A DNA stretch of 64,000 bases from Hysterium pulicare CBS 123377. Its lineage: Eukaryota > Ascomycota > Dothideomycetes > Hysteriales > Hysteriaceae. This document shows positions 48,009 to 59,561 of this stretch, piece by piece. Each line of letters starts with the position of its first letter. Position 1 is the first letter of the stretch. Made by a program: the position numbers and the translations under genes. Location of the stretch: the NCBI GenBank assembly GCA_000467715.1, contig AJFK01000769.1, positions 87,960 to 151,959 of the forward strand. Reading direction: 5' to 3'. The notes under the pieces are model-generated. The model was given only the letters and a program-made list of their open reading frames with translations. It did not search any database and was not told the DNA's origin.

Positions 48009-49987
48009 GTTGATTGATGGTTTGTTTGATGTTGGTAGCTGGGAGCTGAATCAAAGGATGATTGATTGTTGTAGAAGTGAAGAGAGGCTGCTGGACTGTT
48101 GGACTGCTGGACTGTTGCTTGCTCTTGTGAGATAACTGATGGGAAGATGTCTGCTACTTATACATTTCTTTGAAGGCCTTCTCGTATCCGGACTTTTGAC
48201 GATTGTTGGTAGTGTATGAAAGTCCTACATCGCGATGGACGAGGTCTTCGAAAATGGAGGCACAGTTCTCTGCTCTGAACTACGGGTTTACGGCTGAGCT
48301 TGAGCCTCATGGCTCCATGGGGTTGCGATCGTTTCACCAGTTCCTGCAGGAGTTCTTTCAAAGATGGTAATGATGTACACGGAAAGATGGGCTTGTTGCT
48401 GAGACCAGTCGGTAAGAGGAAAGTGTTAGAGCCCCACGACACTACTTCGAGTAAGGTGAGAGGAATCAGATGATGGAATCTCATAATGAGAATGACTTTG
48501 ACAACGCCCGATGACGACTTGTTCAGGGGGGTGAAATCTGGGGAAGCGCATAGTGCACAATGCACCTGGAGTCGATCTCATACTCCGTGAGAGGTAACAC
48601 GACTACTAAAAAGGATGCAGGGGGTTAAGAGAAGGGAGAGTTCTAAAAAAATCAAGTCCGCATGGTCGAACTTCGCCTTACATCTCATGGAATGTCACCA
48701 GTTGTTCTCGAGTTGGGAGATACGTCGACACGCCTCAAATGGCTACATATGTTGTGAACATGTTCATTCCCACCGTTTACTTTCCGCGATGGCTTAGGCG
48801 GCTGAGAATAAGCTTCTCCAAGAATCACACCCAGGGCTTGACAGCAGGAAGCTTTGCATGCAGTAGATTGAAAGTGCGGGGTCCGCAAGGCTACATCTCT
48901 CGGCCTTCACGAAAACGATCAGATCGATGAGAGCAAGTGCCCATTCGGTGGCGAAGCCTTGCGGCACACGCATAACATGAGAATAGCGCGATGCCTCAGG
49001 ATCTCGGGCGAGAAGAGGCGTATCGGAATTCAATATGGAGATCTGCACGGAGGAGGATGTTGCCAAGGAGTTAATAAATTTTAGCGACAACTCATTCTTC
49101 AGCTTCAGGAAATATGAAACGGAAAAAGGAAGAACAGGCAAGTGGTAAAGACTTCGTGGGATGAAGCAGAGACCAGACGGAGTTGTGGAGAGATCGAACG
49201 TGAAGGCTTACGTACATCACATGCTAGGCTCCTTTTGGAACAAGCTTAGACTTCTTCATCTCATATTCGAAGTTCAAGGCCACATTCATCCATCAACTAT
49301 CACGTGGGCAGCAGGTTCCTGAGGAAGGTTCGGTGTAACGTCTATGCGGGCTCTCAAGTTTGTATACTACCCAAATGCTTTCCTTCATTCAGGTACAATC
49401 TGCTCTTAGGTTCAGATATATGCTCTCCCCAAGCCTTGAATCGGCAACGTTAGCACAAAGGGGCGCATTTCGCGAGACTTCATAAGTCTACCCTCATCCT
49501 TATTTCCAAAATCACGGGAGTTCAGAATCATGTTGCGTTCTAATAGCGAATGCAATTCGCCGAGGACAAGCGAATGACGGCGGTGAATACATACTGCATC
49601 CGAACTGCTCACATGTATATACGCCCGTGGACTTAAAGGTGTCTACTAAGAATGGTTTTGAGAATTGATCTTAGCCCTTATACATTGATACTATTATAAA
49701 ATAAAAGTGTCTTGCTACCCTTTCTCTTACTCTGTTCGAAATGATAAAGCCTTCCATATGAGCCGCCGTACCTTAAAGCTTGGGCCAACCGGGGAACCTT
49801 ATCAGCCTTTCCGACGTCAACATCTTTCAACTTCCCAAATTCGCCGGATAGGCCATTGAGGAACGGATACACGGCTCATGATGCATCAAGCATCTGATTC
49901 TCCTCACGAGTGGATCGCCGTCTACCTTCAAGATTTTTGCAATAACCGTCCTCGACCGAAAAGAACCCAACAACCTCCCTGATCACA
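48009..49987. other. Long intergenic region
   Basis: About 2 kb between divergent genes. A TATAAGTA on the minus strand near 48160 is a plausible TATA box for the small secreted protein. Short ORFs at 48158-48565, 48794-49141 and 49412-49612 have no protein-like pattern. No repeat or RNA gene seen. Confidence 0.5.
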
Positions 49988-51832
49988 ATGCCTCGTAATA
50001 TCCGCATTGCTGCCGCCCAAGTCGGTGCTATTCATCTCAAAGATCCTCGAGAAAAGACTTTAGTTCGATTAGTGCATCTTTTAGAGGATGCTGCATCTAA
50101 GGGAGCACAAGTTGTCCTCTTCCCGGAATGTACCTTCACGACGTTCTTCCCTCGACACTTCATTTCGGACGAAGCCGAGCTGGAATCATTCTTCGAACAT
50201 GGAGATATCATAACAGCGCCAAATACAAAACCAATATTTGATAAAGCGAAAGAGCTCGGAATAGACATCTGCATAGGGTTTGCCGAGGCGACGGACGCGG
50301 GCGAGCATTACAATACCTGCGTATATTATCATGCGAAGTCAGGATCAATATTATCAAAATACCGAAAGATCCATCTGCCTGGAGACTATGAGCCTTTCCC
50401 AGACCCTGAAGCTACGAATCAGCTTGAAAAGCGATACTTCAGGCCCGGAAACCTGGGATTTGAAGCTTTCCGGGTCCCGGACCTCACAGAAGCGCCTGCG
50501 GACCGTGGCGAACCCCTGTTCGGTATGATTATTTGCAATGACCGTCGATGGGCAGAAGCATGGCGTTGTTTGGGTCTTCAGGGCGTGGAAGTAATATTCT
50601 GTGGCTACAACACTACGGGGTTCGCTCCACATCTTTGGGGTTCATCTGTCAAACAGGATCCCAAGGAAGCCGAAAACATGGCGCTTTTCCATCATAAGCT
50701 GGTCATGCAAGCCAACTCATACACGAATGCTACATTCTCCGTGAGTGCTGCTCGATGCGGTTGGGATGACGACAAATACAATCTGATTGCTGGCTCATTG
50801 ATCACGGGCCCAGATGGAACAATCCTAGCCGAAAGTCAGACGACCGAAGACGAAATAATCATAGCTGATTGTGACCTGGATCGCTGTAGGCAAGGTAAAA
50901 GCAGGACATTTGACTTTGCCAGACATCGTCGAGTTGAACATTATTCCCTCCTCACCTCTCAACCTGGCGTAATCGAGCCTCCCCATCTATCTGCGACTAC
51001 CAACGGAAACAATGCCCTGCCGAATGGACATACGAACGGTGTAAAGAGTCCAGCTCCAACTATACGTTCCGTCTCAGGACCGGCATATACGAAAACGATC
51101 CGTATCCTCCTTTGCAACCCCAATGCCACAGAATTCATGACCGACGCCTGCCTCCAGATGGTGAAACCCACGCTGCCTCCGGATGTTTCTGTTCACGGCT
51201 TCACGGCCCCAGTACCAGCTCCATCCGCAATCGAAGGCAACTTTGACAGTGTCATGTCTGCCGCTGCTGCAGCCCGTGCTATCATTCCTATCGCAGACCA
51301 ATTTGACGCCTTCTTGGTTGCCTGCTACAGCGACCATGCTCTTATTCGTATGCTTCGCGAGGAGCTATCGCAGCCGGTTGTGGGCATCATGGAGGCTTCG
51401 CTATTTGCCGCCCGGACGCTGGGAAGTCGTTTCGGTATCGTCGCAACTTCATATCGGGCCAAATTTATGATGGAAGATGCAGTCCGTCATTACGGTCTTG
51501 AAGGTTTCTGTGCCGGCGTCCGGAGCTGCCACCTTGGAGTTCTGGAACTCGAATCGAAGCCAGAGAAGGAGGTCCTTGCGATTATGTGCGAAGTCGGCAA
51601 AGAGCTGGTCAAAGACGGTGCCGATGTCCTCACGCTAGGATGTGCTGGTATGACCAACATGAAGGCCGCCGTTGAACATGCCGTGGGAGATACTGTTCAG
51701 GTCGTCGATGGCGTTGTTGCTGGTGTACATCATCTGGTAGGCTTGGTAAGAATAAACACAAAAACTGCAAAGGCTGGATTATACACCAGCTCGGCGATAG
51801 AAAGGAAACTGAGGGGACAAGATTACTGTTAG
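49988..51832 (+). CDS. Fused N-carbamoylase (nitrilase family) and hydantoin racemase
   Basis: A single uninterrupted frame of 614 residues. Residues 1-325 are a nitrilase-superfamily amidohydrolase with the catalytic triad Glu47 (FPECTF), Lys127 (RKIHLPG) and Cys183 (IICNDRRW). The Glu47/Lys127 positions match those of bacterial N-carbamoyl-D-amino acid amidohydrolase, which releases D-amino acids, CO2 and ammonia. A flexible Asn/Gly/Pro linker (about 331-366) leads to residues 367-614, an Asp/Glu/hydantoin racemase domain with the two catalytic cysteines Cys446 (ACYSDH) and Cys552 (LGCAGMTN). Together the halves could racemise a hydantoin-type or related substrate and then cleave its carbamoyl product; a separate hydantoinase would still be needed, and none is visible nearby. 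No intron, no targeting signal. Confidence 0.9.
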   Translation: MPRNIRIAAAQVGAIHLKDPREKTLVRLVHLLEDAASKGAQVVLFPECTFTTFFPRHFISDEAELESFFEHGDIITAPNTKPIFDKAKELGIDICIGFAEATDAGEHYNTCVYYHAKSGSILSKYRKIHLPGDYEPFPDPEATNQLEKRYFRPGNLGFEAFRVPDLTEAPADRGEPLFGMIICNDRRWAEAWRCLGLQGVEVIFCGYNTTGFAPHLWGSSVKQDPKEAENMALFHHKLVMQANSYTNATFSVSAARCGWDDDKYNLIAGSLITGPDGTILAESQTTEDEIIIADCDLDRCRQGKSRTFDFARHRRVEHYSLLTSQPGVIEPPHLSATTNGNNALPNGHTNGVKSPAPTIRSVSGPAYTKTIRILLCNPNATEFMTDACLQMVKPTLPPDVSVHGFTAPVPAPSAIEGNFDSVMSAAAAARAIIPIADQFDAFLVACYSDHALIRMLREELSQPVVGIMEASLFAARTLGSRFGIVATSYRAKFMMEDAVRHYGLEGFCAGVRSCHLGVLELESKPEKEVLAIMCEVGKELVKDGADVLTLGCAGMTNMKAAVEHAVGDTVQVVDGVVAGVHHLVGLVRINTKTAKAGLYTSSAIERKLRGQDYC

Positions 51833-52349: not shown

Positions 52350-53345
52350 ATGCCCGCGTTTCGTGTAAACGAAGGCAACCGCATTTACGAGATCCTTGAT
52401 TTTCAAGGAGACGCAACATTTACGTTCAATTTCACCCGAGATGAAGTACAAGGCCAGATCCAGCTAGCTACAATTGCTCCTGTCGGCCCTGCCGGACACG
52501 TTCTTGTGCCTAATGTGCCTAATGTGCCCCCGAACAATTGTCCGAACGGCCCCTTACCAAATCAACCTCCTGTCAGCCTCCTTCCTGCCAACGGACATCG
52601 TCAGAACGGACCCCCGAATGTTCCTCCACCTCTTCGGAATGCTCCTCCACCTCTCCAGAATGCTCCTCCACCTCTTCGGAATGCTCCTCCGCCTCTTCAG
52701 AATGATCGTCGTCGAAACGATCTCCGCCAAAACGGGCGTCCTGCGAATGGTCCTCCTCCAAACAACGCTCTTCCCAACAATCCCCTCCTGAACGGTGCAC
52801 TGCTGAATGGGGGTCTCAACAACAAAGGCGTTCGCCAGCGAAATAACGTCCCTGTCAACCCAGCCCCACCGAATGGTAGGCCATTTCCACTGCCTGTTAG
52901 GGAATGCAGATTATTGATTTAGGTTTAGGCTTCTTCCTGTACGCTAGGATTCCACATCACAAACTTGGGATTTTACATGTGGACAATACTCACTTGACCT
53001 GGCGTCCTGATAAAGGAAACCCTCGTCGGTTTATCATAACTCCAACCGGTACGATGCTTCTTTTTAATTTCTAGTCCACTGCTGATTCTGATAGCTGGTA
53101 TTGAGATCTGGATGAAGGCTCAGGGACGCATGCTGAAGTTTAGGATGGCGCTGCAGATGGAAGGCGCCCTCCCTAGCAGCCAATACAATGTTCTGTTGAG
53201 TCCTAAGGTGGACAAGCCACAGGACCGTGGTTGGGCCAAATGGGAGGGTGCGAAAGTCCGACACAACGACGCCACGCTCCAGGCTTTCATGAAGGCAGCT
53301 TCTAGGCTAACCACAGCATGGCGTATGCCCCATTTTGCTGTCTAG
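52350..53345 (+). CDS. Tandem-family paralog A, Asn/Pro-rich
   Basis: Three exons: 52350-52875, 52929-53048 and 53095-53345, giving 298 residues; introns are about 53 and 46 bp, both phase 1. The N-terminus (residues 1-43, FRVNEGNRIYEILDF) looks like a short beta segment. Residues 44-175 are Asn/Pro-rich, including four NAPPPL(R/Q)-type repeats. Exon 2 encodes FFLYARIPHHKLGILHV. Exon 3 carries the family core YNVLLSPK...WAKWEGAKVRHND, and ends LTTAWRMPHFAV. A second acceptor six bases upstream of 52929 would add two residues. An alternative 3' splice after 53320 is possible. No signal peptide, membrane segment or known domain. The start is the ATG at 52350, as the frame upstream has none. Function unknown. 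Confidence 0.75.
52623..52706 (+). repeat. Four 21-bp in-frame repeats in paralog A
   Basis: Four consecutive 21-bp units (CCTCCACCTCTTCGGAATGC-like) encode PPPLRNA/PPPLQNA. Unit length is a multiple of three, so copy number can change without breaking the frame. Confidence 0.85.
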
Positions 53346-54095
53346 AGTGACGGTTCTTAATGGGTTCCAATCGGCACTGCTAGAGTGCATTCTATATGGC
53401 CTCGAAAAGATTGTTCTGGTATGTGGAGACGAGGCAAAGGGTATTCAGCTTAGGACAAGTTACATGAATCAGAACTAAAGGCTCTTCTGATAAGTATCAA
53501 AACACTTAGTCTCATCTCGTCAATGTGAAACATTCTTCTTCGCTATCTTGCCGGCCATCTATTTCACGATCGGTGTCCGTATTCATAGTACTTTAACTCT
53601 ATAGCTTTGGAGTCTACAATGTAGATCTAAACTATATGTCACTTTCCGAATTGCCACGAGGATGGCAACTTGCTTTCAGGCGTCTTACCGAGTCCAATTC
53701 GCCTTGGTTAGCTGACGGCAAAGCAGTTAGTAAGCGCAGACTCATCCTCCGACGGTAGTAAGTTCGGACTCTTGTTTGTATATTCGCCTCTAAGCTCCGT
53801 CTTAGTTGACCACTCATTAGACATAAATAGAGGTGCCAATATGCCAACCATGCCCACTCATCAAGGGACAGTGAAGGGACGAAAATCCGGTGAAAAGAGG
53901 GAGAATCGGAAAATAGCAAAAAGCAATCACATGATTTTAAGTCACGCTACTCGTTATGTACGGTTTAAACGGATCTTTGGGGTTCATTCACCATTAGAAC
54001 CAGCCCCACTTCTATTTAAACCGCGCGTTCTGCTTCGGTTTTCCCAACATCCTCATTTCAACCACCCCGCCTCCCAACGCACAACCATAATCAAT
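53346..54095. other. Intergenic between paralogs A and B
   Basis: About 750 bp. A TATTTAAA at 54013-54020 lies 76 bp before the next ATG and is a likely TATA box. The long frame open upstream of paralog B (from 53772) lacks an ATG before 54096. Nothing else seen. Confidence 0.5.
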
Positions 54096-55278
54096 ATGGT
54101 TACGATCCGTATCGAGGAAGCAGGAAGGACATACGTTATCACCGGCATTCATGCCCCGGTAACCTATACAGGTGGCTTGTTGAGGGTGGGCGCCGCTGGT
54201 CAGGTCCCTCCAATAGGGCCTCCGAACACCGTACAACCACAAAACGGACTGCCCGCGAACGCTCCGCCCGCCAATGGACTGCCCGTTAACGCTCCTCATG
54301 CCAACGGTCCTCATCTCAACCCTCCCAACAACGCTCCGCCCGCCAATGGACCGCCCGTTAACGCTCCTCATGCCAACGGTCCTCATCTCAACCCTCCCAA
54401 CAACGGCCCTCCTGTCAACGGCCCTCCTGTCAACGGCTTTCTTGTCTATGCCCCTCCCGTCAATGGCCTTCCCGCCAACGGCCCTCCAATGAACGCGCCT
54501 CCAATAAACGCGCCTCCGATGAACGGTCCTCCAATTAACGCGCCTCCGATGAACGGTCCTCCTATCAACATGGCCATAGGTCAACCTCATAATGGCCTTG
54601 CCAATCTTGGCCCTCCTATCCCGGCTCAACCAAACGGTAAACTATCTCCATTACCCTGCTAGATCACGGGCCACTAATGCAAATTCAGTTCTATTCTTGC
54701 ACGCCCGAATTCCTCAGAACCAGCTCGGCACAATTCGACTCCAAGGCGGAGCGGTCAGTTGGCACCCGAATAGAGGACAGCCTGCAGCGTTTATCATACT
54801 CCCTCAATGTAAGTCTTCTTCTTTTTGGGTTAAGCTCAAAAACTAATACTTCTAGCGTTCGTCGAACTGGATGAGCGGCCCCAGGGCATTCGCCTAGACT
54901 TCAAAATGCGCCTCCAAGGAAAGTCTAATCCAAACCACCTGTTCAACATCCTCGTGAGTCCCCGATACAACCAGAGGGACACCGACAATAGGGCGTGGGC
55001 GAAATGGGATGATGCTGAAGTCGCGCATAACGACAACACTATCAGTAACTTCATTAATGCCCTCACTGGGCTCACGACGGTATATCGTGTCCAATAACGC
55101 ACTTCCAGGGTCTTAGGCTAATCTGGTTCAGGTTAACGACCTCAGGGAAGTAGAAGATGAAGCTAGGAATGAAGATGAAGATGAAGATGAGGATGAAGAT
55201 GAGGATGATGATGAGGATGAGGATGCGGATTGGCCGATTCCTACTGTTATGCCGGCCGTAATTCGGCATTCTGTTTGA
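54096..55278 (+). CDS. Tandem-family paralog B, repeat-rich with acidic tail
   Basis: Exons 54096-54636, 54689-54808, 54856-55079 and, probably, 55132-55278, giving 343 residues. Exon 2 is exactly 120 bp, as in paralog A, and the first two introns are phase 1 at matching sites. N-terminus IRIEEAGRTYVITGI resembles that of A. Residues about 48-170 are Asn/Pro/Gly-rich repeats. Exon 2 gives LFLHARIPQNQLGTIRL. Exon 3 gives FNILVSPRY...WAKWDDAEVAHND. Without the last 52-bp intron (GTATAT...CAG) the protein would stop at 55097 after TTVYRVQ. With it the frame runs into an acidic Glu/Asp tail and ends PTVMPAVIRHSV. The last intron is supported by size, branch site (GCTAAT) and a similar exon in paralog C. 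Function unknown. Confidence 0.72.
54261..54404 (+). repeat. Two 72-bp in-frame repeats in paralog B
   Basis: Two adjacent 72-bp units starting GCTCCGCCCGCC are almost identical (one clear mismatch), encoding a 24-residue unit rich in ANG, VNAPHANG and LNPPNN. The near identity implies recent duplication. Confidence 0.85.
54484..54568 (+). repeat. 15-bp PP(M/I)N(A/G) repeats in paralog B
   Basis: About six consecutive 15-bp units encode PPMNA, PPINA, PPMNG or PPING, continuing the Asn/Pro pattern. Confidence 0.75.
55143..55236 (+). repeat. GAAGAT/GAGGAT trinucleotide-type repeat
   Basis: A run of GAA/GAG/GAT codons within the proposed last exon of paralog B, encoding an almost purely acidic stretch. 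If that exon is not used, it is a plain microsatellite in the 3' UTR. Confidence 0.8.
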
Positions 55279-55735
55279 TCCGATAATGAGGTATGGTGGT
55301 CCAGTGTATCAAGATAAACATAGTGTAGTACTGGGATCAAATCAGAGAATCCTTCAATTATAAGTATCTGCTGATCTCCTCCTCTTACATCGTCCAAGTG
55401 AACTATCATAATTTTCCCTCTTGCTATCCATTCATTTCACTTGACTTTAGATTATTCTGTTTACTTTTGCTGTAATATTTTTTTATTTATAATCAAAAAA
55501 CGCTCTCATTAGGTTCGTGATAGGCTCTAGAGTGGCAGTTGGCTTTAGAGAGGTTCCTCGAGCTCCAATGATTTATGTAGACCGTAGACCGGTGGCCTCG
55601 ATCGATGTGGAGGTGAGCACGCCCTAATGAAAGGCATGGAGTGAACGCGCTAATGTGGCTGTGCTCCGGCTAAGCTTTATTCAGCAAACGGCCTATACAG
55701 TCTCTACATTCTTCAAACACATCACCAATTTCACA
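55279..55735. other. Intergenic between paralogs B and C
   Basis: About 460 bp, AT-rich at 55420-55510. No gene or repeat recognised beyond promoter DNA for paralog C. Confidence 0.5.
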
Positions 55736-56818
55736 ATGGATTCAGGCCTTTCAATCCCTGGCCTTCGGCTTGACTCTGGCAAAGTCGTTGGAAAGCTCGA
55801 CCTCACTTGGACACCTCCCGGCGGTGCTCCAATTCACCTGTCTATTTCGTCACTTGATCCTATCTCAGGTACTGACCCTACTCCAAATCAAGTTGCAGGT
55901 ACTCAGCAATCTGTCGCTGGAGATGAGTCAGGAACATCCACTCGTGACACAATCCAAGTCCAGCCACATGCACAAGCCCGAAACGTGAAGTCTCCAGGTG
56001 AAGCGATTAAGGCTATGAGCGCCGAAGAACGCAAACGCCGCATTCGAGGCGCAAAGCCTTCCGAGCTTGCGAAAACGACTCTGAATCCCAAGCCTAGGCA
56101 GCGCGAAGGTGAGTTAATACTTAGAACTTTACGCTTGATTCAGCATACTAAGGAAAATAGAAACACCTACAGAGCTTTTTCTACATGTCCGTTGGCGCTC
56201 CAACAAAAATGGACATCTCGTTGTGGATTCGGAAAATGTCTCTTGGAGGTCAAACCATTCGATTCCACCTCAACCCGTCGAGTTCGATCATGGAGGTAGA
56301 TTTCATTCCAACTATTGAAGCATCTCCACTAGAAACTGATTCCTAAACCTCTAAGTGTGCGCTCAGATATCAGCATACTCACAGGGCGTCAAGATCAAGT
56401 TCATTATCTCGCCCAGCTCTAAGAATAGTCGTGGGAATGAGCTATACGCATTGATTCCACCTAAGGCGGACAAGGTTGGCACAGCAGTGGGACCTATTTG
56501 GGATGCCGAAAAGGCCGAGCACAATGCTGGAGTAGTAGACGAATGGCTGGACGGACTGCGCAAACTTATGCCAGTTACGTACGTATCTGCCGACGGAAGC
56601 TCATATGAAGGGTTCAATCTCTTCCCTGAGTTGAGGTAAGCTTCCGTTAAGCTATGAGTAGACTGTGTCCATCTGACATAGCTCCAGACTGCTTAGCCCT
56701 CAGCTGTAATGAATTGGCGGAATCAGCAAGAATTTGGTGGGCCGATGCCGTTGAGGAAGATATGGACATTCCGTATGTTTGGGGCTTCATGTCTTCCTAT
56801 TCTGCTTGTTTTTACTAG
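55736..56818 (+). CDS. Tandem-family paralog C
   Basis: Exons 55736-56108, 56173-56295, 56356-56635 and probably 56704-56818, giving 296 residues; the first two introns (64 and 60 bp) are phase 1 at the family positions. The N-terminal unit IPGLRLDSGKVVGKLDLTW matches the duplicated unit of paralog D. The middle is Ser/Thr/Gln-rich, then basic (MSAEERKRRIRGAKPSEL) instead of Asn/Pro repeats. Exon 2 reads LFLHVRWRSNKNGHLVV, aligning with B. Exon 3 reads YALIPPKADK...IWDAEKAEHN, the divergent family core. A stop at 56637-56639 would end an unspliced form at 259 residues. Splicing 56636-56703 opens an exon with RIWWADAVEEDMDIP, acidic like the tail of B. Function unknown. Confidence 0.68.
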
Positions 56819-57208
56819 GGGCTTGCTTTGATACCCGTCATATGTGTCTCTCACTTTCATGTAATTTTTTCTAGCTAGTCAAACTCAGAGACTTAGCTTT
56901 TCTCACGGAACCTGTATTCCCTTCTCTACTCATTTCCAAAATTAGTCAGAAATCGTTCGGTCTCAAGAGGTCATTCTGCTTCTTGTTCACGAGTATTACT
57001 TTCCGCTTTCGTAAACATCAGTACTGTGATCTCATCATTTCCTCACCTCTGGCCCTAAATCAGTGATTCTATCCTGAATTTCGGCTTTCCTCACCCAGTG
57101 TACGAGACGCCTCAAGCACCACAGGCCTCAAGTACAGCTTCACGTACCATACTCCAATCATAGTTTTGAAGTTATCGTCCAACTAATACTGCTTCGTCTC
57201 GTTGAGCC
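56819..57208. other. Intergenic between paralogs C and D
   Basis: About 390 bp; no gene or repeat recognised. Confidence 0.5.
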
Positions 57209-58285
57209 ATGGCCCAGCATATCTGTGTTGCCGGCTTGGAGTTCTATGTGCTCAAACAAGAAGGCACTTTGAAACTATGGCTCGAGTCCGGAGGAAAACA
57301 AACAGCCGTGCTTGAATTACCCGCCGCAATGGCAAGCAGTCCTTTCCCACTTCCACAATCTCAACAATCCCCTTTGCCTAACGGTCACCGTATCACATCA
57401 CTAGGCCTCGAGCTACATTTAGTCAAAGCTGAGGGGCTCCTGAAGCTTCGCTTCAAGGGTACCGCTGGGGCAGTATTCACACTGGAGTACGATGGGACAC
57501 TTCCACCGGTCATTGATCTCGACGAAAAGAAGCCGATCAAAGTCGACCCGGTTTCGCGGACAGATGACGTGGCACATGCACTGCCGGATGTGCTGATGGA
57601 TACGGCGGTCCTAACGAACACGGAGAATCATGGGAATGCACACATCGACAAACTTGCCAAAAAGGTCGCGCAAATGGCGCAGACATTGCCACACGCGTTG
57701 CCGCAAAGCACCAACTGCCTGCCCACGACTTCGCTATGCCCTGGTAGGTTGAGTTCTTCACAGTTCGTAATTCAGAGGCTCGAGGTGACTAACATGTGAT
57801 CAGACAAAACCCGGAAACCGTCGAAACCAACGCAGCGTCCCCAATCCTGCCAAAGCGACCCAAAGAAAAGAGCGTGCTCTTCTCCGAAAATCCTCTTTCT
57901 CTCAGGGAATAAGGTAGGTCCACGCTCTGGCTTTATTGGTAGCACGGGAAAGCTCTGCTTCGACGTTGAGAAGAAAAAGCTACACTGGGAGGCAAAGTGC
58001 GGTAGTAGGATTCCGATCACATTGAGCAAGAAACGTACGTTTCTCTTCATCCGTCTGATTTCTATCGGCTAATGGCTTCCCTATGTGATAGTCGAATTGA
58101 CCTACAAATCGCATAAATGGGGTGAGAAGAAATTCGAGCTTTCTCACCAATATGGGAAGAAGAGCAAGACTTGGGCTTCTATCCATCTATCTGGCAGCAA
58201 ATCACCTATTGCTGTAGAAAACCGTGCGGTAGAGGCACAGATGGTGAACCTTATTAGGAGATGCATCAAACAAAGCGCTACTTGA
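57209..58285 (+). CDS. Tandem-family paralog D, duplicated N-terminal unit
   Basis: Three exons: 57209-57743, 57804-58034 and 58092-58285, giving 319 residues; introns of 60 and 57 bp, both phase 1 at the family positions. Residues 6-37 (GLEFYVLKQEGTLKLWLES) and 64-95 (GLELHLVKAEGLLKLRFKG) are an internal duplication of the unit seen once in paralog C. Exon 2 is longer than in A-C, with a basic Cys/Ser/Lys-rich insert before ILFLSGNK and KLHWEAKCGSRIPITL. Exon 3 (ELTYKSHKWGEKKFELSHQY, then WASIHLSGSKSP) is the most diverged C-terminal domain of the four and lacks the WAKW motif. No known domain or targeting signal. Function unknown. Confidence 0.72.
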
Positions 58286-59561
58286 GATCTGGCATCCCTA
58301 TCCATCAAAGCGCTTAGAAGACCTAGTTCACCCGACACTCCGACACTGCTACAGTGCTATATCTTCGGTTCCGGCTTGGTCAATTGGGAAGAATATGGGT
58401 CGAGTCTGGCTGCCGATTCAAGCGTCCTTCATGGGGAAAAATGATTCTTTGAGATGCCAATCGGTTTCCTTTGGTTGTTTGGCGTTTTGGTGTTGGTGTG
58501 TGATTGTTTGTCTCCTTGCTTCTTTACGAGACTTTGATGCAGATATTGATCGTGCATCCAGAGACTGCGCCGGCTTGAGATTCAGGAAGTGATCATGAGT
58601 AAGGCTGGAGGTTGGGAGAGATCGGAGTTAGGATTGGAAAGTGGTTTTTTTAGCAATTTGACTTCTTATTTCTTTTCCCCAGGAAACCTTCCTCCAAGCT
58701 GAGATCTAAGATGTGGTCCACATGGATCACGATGTGGGCGACATGGCCCATGTCGCCCACGTTTGCCCACGTTACGGCCCATGTCGTCCATGTTATGCTC
58801 CACGATGGCCCACATCGTCCACATCATGGTCCACATCATCCATGCCTAGCCCTACACGGAGAGATGGCAATTAAGGACGGCCTGAAAGTATGTAAGATCG
58901 AATCGGACCGGCTTAATCATAAGCAACCATAGGGTCGTATGAAGTGGGAAGGCAACGACGGTAGGAGTGTAAGATTGCCAAGAGTGGTGCAGTTCGACAC
59001 AGAGAAAATACGAAGAGTTGGAAAGAAGAGGCATAAAAAAGAGGAAGCAGCAGGAAATGAAACTATTTCCAATTTTAATTCGATGATTGAAACATTGATG
59101 TTGGTGCCCTTGACGTGTCTTTAAGAATATATGACATTAATCCCCTAACTCAACCTAGCTAGAACGACAATGCTTCCGTCTCAGAGTTTACAGACTGTTA
59201 AATAATGAATCATTCTTGAGGATCGAACGCGCTATGCTGTGGTTTAGATATACTATGAGAGCCAGAAAGGGGTAAAAGAAGCGAGGGAAAAAAGAAAGCA
59301 AGCGACAAGAGGGCAAAACTCTCCACATCCGCTAATAAGCGATGTGTCGTTATCCGCCATTTCAATCTTCACGAAATAGCTTCGATACAGCGTCGATCAT
59401 CCCCGAACCTCGGGACCCTGCCTCTAGGTTTATCTCAATCGATCCCACGGAGTATTCAACTGCAAATATTTCTTTTCTCTAGCTCAAACAAATAGTAAAT
59501 GGTATCAATTTATAATCGCGTCTTCAAAGCCTGATCTCCAGGGAATCAATACCAGGTGCAA
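58286..59561. other. Intergenic with CCAYRT-rich repeats and a hairpin
   Basis: About 1.3 kb. The stretch 58711-58850 is built from near-repeats of CCCACG/CCACAT/CCATGT words and contains a perfect inverted repeat. The ORF across it (58711-58932) is a product of the repeats. The rest is AT-rich with no gene seen. Confidence 0.5.
58734..58760. repeat. Perfect 13-bp-arm inverted repeat
   Basis: Arms GTGGGCGACATGG and CCATGTCGCCCAC flank a single C. In RNA or single-stranded DNA this would fold into a strong hairpin. It sits inside a 140-bp tract of related words. Confidence 0.85.

Follow-up and report, generated by a model that had tools for sequence, protein, structure and literature searches.

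A tandem gene family in Hysterium pulicare with a constrained C-terminal domain and a tentative likeness to the PH domain of TFIIH

What kind of protein is encoded by four small genes that stand head to tail in the genome of the ascomycete Hysterium pulicare CBS 123377, and are all four of them related? The gene models, designated A to D, are read on the plus strand at 52350-58285 of a 64,000-nucleotide stretch of contig AJFK01000769.1 (contig positions 87,960 to 151,959; hereafter the window), which reaches the contig end in a genome of 37.2 Mb in 596 contigs. An initial annotation of this DNA described them as four paralogs of an unrecognised family. The comparisons reported here point to a genuine tandem family of long standing, which comprises A, B, and C, with D as a possible fourth member. 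Our tentative reading, in which we place somewhat less than even confidence, is that A-C arose by old tandem duplication, probably with D as a more diverged copy, and that their products would be intracellular adaptors carrying a divergent PH-like domain, nearest to the PH domain of TFIIH Tfb1/p62.

The C-terminal domain encoded by exons 2 and 3 lies at 52929-53345 in A, 54689-55079 in B, and 56173-56578 in C, and is split in each by an intron (53049-53094, 54809-54855, and 56296-56373, respectively). Identity within the domain is 39% between A and B, 23% between A and C, and 26% between B and C, with alignment z scores of 44, 13, and 13, and none of 500 shuffles reaches the score of any pair. 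Judged by these alignments, A, B, and C are homologous in the C-terminal domain, far above chance. The motifs quoted in the initial annotation for exons 2 and 3 were all found, and C has a counterpart of the WAKW...HND stretch as well (GPIWDAEKAEHNA). The candidate domain of D (57806-58282, split by the intron at 58035-58091) has no detectable homology to the others: its scores against A, B, and C are matched by 282, 233, and 323 of 500 shuffles, and with the exons aligned separately and anchored at the intron, p was 0.065-0.08 for exon 2 and 0.34-0.70 for exon 3. The claim of four paralogs with aligning second and third exons thus stands for A, B, and C, but not for D, which scores like shuffled sequence and is linked to the family only by its exon plan and by its score with the Tfb1 profile described below.

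For the pairs among A, B, and C, synonymous differences in the domain are saturated (proportion of synonymous sites that differ, pS, 0.83-0.86) and nonsynonymous differences are clearly fewer (pN 0.39-0.51), so the copies are old. On these values the shared domain of A-C is constrained, not diversifying, so that the diversifying change initially proposed for the family is not borne out in this part of the proteins. The companion proposal, of a conserved C-terminal domain behind a repeat-built part, agrees with the domain of A-C and the linkers of A and B.

All four gene models have two introns, all in phase 1, 46-78 bp long and with GT..AG ends, as had been described along with the same-strand, head-to-tail order. 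The length of exon 2 is 120 bp in A (126 bp if an upstream acceptor is used) and in B, and 123 bp in C, also as first given; in D it is 231 bp. Gene A (52350-53345) encodes 298 residues in exons 52350-52875, 52929-53048 (or from 52923), and 53095-53345; gene C (55736-56639) encodes 253 residues in exons 55736-56108, 56173-56295, and 56374-56639, and may have an additional downstream exon; gene D (57209-58285) encodes 319 residues in exons 57209-57743, 57804-58034, and 58092-58285. Gene B can be read in a three-exon form (54096-55097; 300 residues; exons 54096-54636, 54689-54808, and 54856-55097) or in a four-exon form (54096-55278; 343 residues), in which exon 3 occupies 54856-55079, a possible third intron follows at 55080-55131, and a candidate exon 4 of 147 bp (55132-55278) adds an acidic tail with a long Asp/Glu run. 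A GAT/GAA-type repeat with 6-, 12-, and 18-bp periods (55153-55230) is the code for this run. The introns and 3′ ends are models read from the DNA alone, and with two possible acceptors in A and unsettled 3′ ends in B and C, some or all of the four could be pseudogenes or be spliced otherwise. We consider such an artefact very improbable, given that the open frames are long, that the short GT..AG introns linking them agree in phase and position, and that the pairs among A, B, and C combine a saturated pS with a lower pN.

To which fold might the domain belong? Its pattern suggested a comparison with the PH domain of Tfb1/p62. With HHalign, a profile of A, B, and C scored 24.4 against four rows of Tfb1 PH sequences (reached by 0 of 100 column shuffles, the best of which scored 18.5) and 25.9 against 74 rows (0 of 200; best 23.7), the 74 being the host sequence, three PDB chains, and 70 proteins, out of 120 retrieved, in which the domain is covered. 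When the same profile was compared with windows along Tfb1 (71 rows), the PH window scored 26.6 and ten others at most 14.9, one of these overlapping the PH half; the reversed profile scored at most 12.2. A hidden Markov model (HMM) built from the 74 rows was run over 2614 six-frame open reading frames (ORFs) from the window plus 20 kb, cluster exons included, together with the four spliced domains. The exon-2 frame of C ranked first, the domain of C second, B third, D fifth, and A 91st. Only one of 500 of its own shuffles reaches the score of B, and likewise for C and D. As a background, 1519 windows of matched length were scored, 1136 taken from 61 ORFs of at least 150 residues outside the cluster and 383 from regions outside the PH domain in 40 Tfb1 proteins; B, C, and D each score above all of them. 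Hence, D resembles the Tfb1 PH domain by itself, though it does not resemble A-C, and this is the only sequence evidence for its membership.

A number of results weigh against the resemblance. The HHalign probability was just 19-34%, across 22-62 columns, and D scored marginally higher with another Tfb1 window (17.34) than with the PH window (17.25). The HMM E-values were 1.9 for C, 2.6 for B, and 3.9 for D in this small search, an unrelated 47-residue frame at rank 4 stood level with D, and the score of A was reached by 20 of 500 shuffles and 97 of the 1519 windows. The domain of C, with an isoelectric point (pI) of 6.6, is not basic. It is possible, if on the unlikely side, that A-C form a local family with a non-PH fold, that their likeness to Tfb1 is a chance G-x-L...W beta-hairpin motif, and that D, though alike in exon plan, is unrelated to its neighbours. 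Such an explanation would accommodate the shortness of the HMM matches (about 20-38 positions round the strand 2-3 hairpin), the near-background score of A, and the failure of D against A-C. It does not readily account for B, C, and D each exceeding all 1519 windows with one profile, D doing so with no detectable similarity to the others, or for a phase-1 intron near an equal place in Tfb1 and A-C.

This intron was considered separately. The PH domain of host Tfb1 contains a single intron, in phase 1, and the joined reading agrees with ITNLQQTP of 7bmu; intron 2 of A-D is also in phase 1. By our own count, from the alignment and from the published S. pombe strands (PMC10345426), the Tfb1 intron falls near the start of strand 5. 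For exon 2 anchored at the intron, 1 (A), 1 (B), and 6 (C) of 1000 shuffles matched the first PH exon of host Tfb1 as well as the real sequence did. Moving the cut in Tfb1 across 50 places gave the best fit at 41 for A and B and at 50 for C, for which 46 and 43 came next; the true intron is at 44. These fits place the agreement within three codons for A and B and within about six for C, and leave D unsupported. Only with a hypothetical three-residue gap ahead of the intron would B be exact. Less favourable to the Tfb1 link are the rank of the true cut (12th for A, 6th for B, and 7th for C of the 50), the poor fit of exon 2 of D (p 0.19), for which cuts at 70, 57, or 56 do better than its true 52, and exon 3, which hardly matches in any gene (p 0.75 in A, 0.08 in B, 0.03 in C, and 0.08 in D). 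The place of the intron may therefore be taken as mild support for a Tfb1 link.

Structure prediction contributed little to the choice between a PH-like and another fold. Two AlphaFold2 models were of poor quality, which also counts against the PH-like assignment: one of the C domain with 26 intron residues left inside (predicted local distance difference test, pLDDT, 43), and one of exon 3 of B only, with A and C (pLDDT 53). In both low-confidence models, strands come first and a C-terminal helix follows, with two further short strands behind the helix in the C model. Fold searches with the two yielded no usable match, those of the C model with Foldseek and VIA-align being uninformative because intron residues lie inside a poor model. 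There was no TFIIH PH chain among the best 50 of 546 Foldseek matches or the 50 VIA-align rows of the C model, nor among the 36 of 36 and 24 rows from two fold searches with the B exon 3 model. The Sin1 PH domain at rank 27 for the C model in Foldseek (E 0.99) is not evidence. The PH-like fold is, on these models, unproven.

Profile libraries gave no name to the family, in agreement with the initial annotation, which knew of none. No Pfam family matched any of the four spliced domains at E up to 10, and none reached the gathering cut-off of PH_TFIIH (PF08567; 27.1 bits), for which host Tfb1, as positive control, scored 87.1 bits (1e-24). Among the whole proteins, only B had Pfam matches, nine in all, every one under its cut-off (including Extensin_1), and these fall mainly on the low-complexity linker and the acidic tail; in NCBIfam, A-C had no match at E 1 and D had one, far under its cut-off. 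A search of PDB sequences with B returned a single match (mitochondrial ribosomal protein S26, E 0.099) and the A-C profile none, while all ten matches of D are ribosomal proteins (best uS12, E 0.033) and include no PH domain. The empty Pfam result and the character of the PDB matches, like the absence of a credible NCBIfam match and the poor structure models, add to the case for a non-PH fold. No description of such a family was found among the titles and abstract openings listed in a literature search.

Relatives elsewhere in the same genome were sought with the domain of B, full-length C and D, and two N-terminal units, with no further copy found; the searches were shallow, in that the B query recovered A and missed C, and the C query recovered only C. 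Two isolated weak matches lie on contigs C424 (E 0.22) and C171 (E 0.92). Over the window and 20 kb upstream, the A-B-C profile found nothing besides A-D at E < 1, and D and five N-terminal units used as single queries had only weak matches elsewhere (E 0.25 or worse). In a collection of 5.8 billion proteins, the B query gathered 53 candidates and the A-B-C alignment 5325, with none at E 10 or better; this search, which covered A-C and not D, gathers candidates by common 5-residue words, and the A, B, and C domains have no such word in common, so that even a relative at the distance between A and B could be missed. At that database size, moreover, A-C and B-C would reach only E 40-180. The cluster might accordingly be an ordinary member of a broader fungal family that changes too fast for the tools used, which we regard as unlikely; the dependence on shared words and the failure of the B query to find C in its own genome speak for it, whereas Pfam, although built from profiles, was likewise empty for the domains, and such fungi are present in the collection. 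The last point comes from a control with host Tfb1, which found 1236 proteins among 7999 scored, the closest among the matches listed being from Lepidopterella palustris (Dothideomycete, Mytilinidiales; 78% identity). Many of the named matches among the 120 listed come from Dothideomycetes. Tfb1 itself is conserved, and is no gauge for fast-changing proteins.

How the remainder of the proteins is built can be described more directly. The N-terminal units of A (first 45 residues) and B (first 41) are homologous (0 of 1000 shuffles), which departs from the view that the first exons differ strongly; the N terminus of C is weakly like the A unit (27 of 1000 shuffles) and the D units (21 and 41 of 1000), values uncorrected for ten comparisons. 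A nucleoplasmin-like character was among the ideas considered for the N-terminal units. At its N terminus, D carries its own unit in duplicate (0 of 1000 shuffles), as had been noticed, followed by the C-terminal domain that cannot be aligned to A-C and yet scores with the Tfb1 PH profile. The Asn/Pro repeats reported for A and B are confirmed as minisatellite-built linkers between the N-terminal unit and the C-terminal domain, in which Asn, Pro, and Gly together make up 57% of residues in A and 61% in B. The A linker contains a 21-bp minisatellite (52616-52704), and that of B contains rows of 15-, 30-, 45-, and 72-bp units (54243-54569), the 72-bp unit being repeated 2.1 times at 98% matches. 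Only these two linkers, which are probably disordered, show repeat-driven change.

Under the preferred reading, a short unit opens each protein and a linker follows, which in A and B is rich in Asn and Pro and made of minisatellites. The C-terminal domain, some 115 residues long, would most likely have a divergent PH-like fold of strands and a single closing helix, for which the PH domain of TFIIH p62/Tfb1 is the nearest match. With its basic surface, the Tfb1/p62 PH domain takes hold of acidic, disordered stretches in transcription and repair factors (PMC10345426), and basic domains are likewise present in A, B, and D (pI 10.6, 9.5, and 10.1, respectively). These two observations underlie the proposal of a protein-binding adaptor, whose mostly basic PH-like domain would bind acidic, disordered stretches of its partners in the manner of Tfb1. 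In B, the possible acidic tail might occupy the protein's own domain or that of a neighbour, as an internal ligand. A hydrophobic N terminus and a membrane span are absent from all four proteins, suggesting an intracellular location. A secreted effector or adhesin was also considered and is not favoured, as hydrophobic N termini and membrane spans are lacking and the Pfam matches of B fall on low complexity. A bolder version of the preferred reading, which we rate as quite improbable, is that a TFIIH PH domain escaped from Tfb1 with its intron kept, acquired new N-terminal units and disordered linkers, and multiplied in one lineage as free-standing readers or decoys of the acidic segments that recruit TFIIH.

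The surroundings of the cluster do not suggest a pathway for A-D. Upstream, a single open frame (49946-51832) combines carbon-nitrogen hydrolase (nitrilase-like) and Asp/Glu/hydantoin racemase domains, an alpha/beta hydrolase and a calcium-channel-like membrane protein lie further upstream, and there is a weak arylesterase match downstream. Between A and B, at about 53572-53771, lies a degenerate copy of a dispersed element of about 200-230 bp, part of which recurs, at 70-79% identity, in at least 32 more places of the genome. In the window copy and seven aligned copies, most start near GGTGTC and end near its complement GACACC, so that the element looks like a short non-autonomous DNA transposon (miniature inverted-repeat transposable element, MITE). 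Just downstream of D, short tandem repeats of 21 and 31 bp occupy 58703-58834.

If the link to Tfb1 is true, a module used for recruitment by a general transcription factor would have become a free-standing, local multigene family. If it is false, the cluster would be another unnamed tandem family of a filamentous fungus, of interest mainly for linkers that are built from repeats and stand next to a domain under constraint.

Two known systems can be set beside the family. Phafin2 has a C-terminal polyD tail that autoinhibits its PH domain (PMC9324892), and B would likewise pair a possible PH-like domain with an Asp/Glu run if its exon 4 is real. A-D have neither a FYVE nor a PH match in Pfam, so the analogy is one of plan only. 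The likeness to the Tfb1/p62 PH domain (PF08567) comprises the weak, repeated profile match of B, C, D, and the A-C profile, a similar length, a basic domain in A, B, and D, low-confidence models with strands and then a helix, and a phase-1 intron that in host Tfb1 lies, by our count, near the start of strand 5 and is comparable to intron 2 here. In contrast to Tfb1, A-D lack a Pfam PH_TFIIH match at E 10 and the BSD domain (PF03909), which is present in the 120 listed Tfb1 proteins. The family also carries an extra WAKW...HND stretch ahead of the last helix, and in C the domain is not basic. Finally, the PH domain is N-terminal in Tfb1, whereas in A-D the corresponding domain would be C-terminal, behind a linker.

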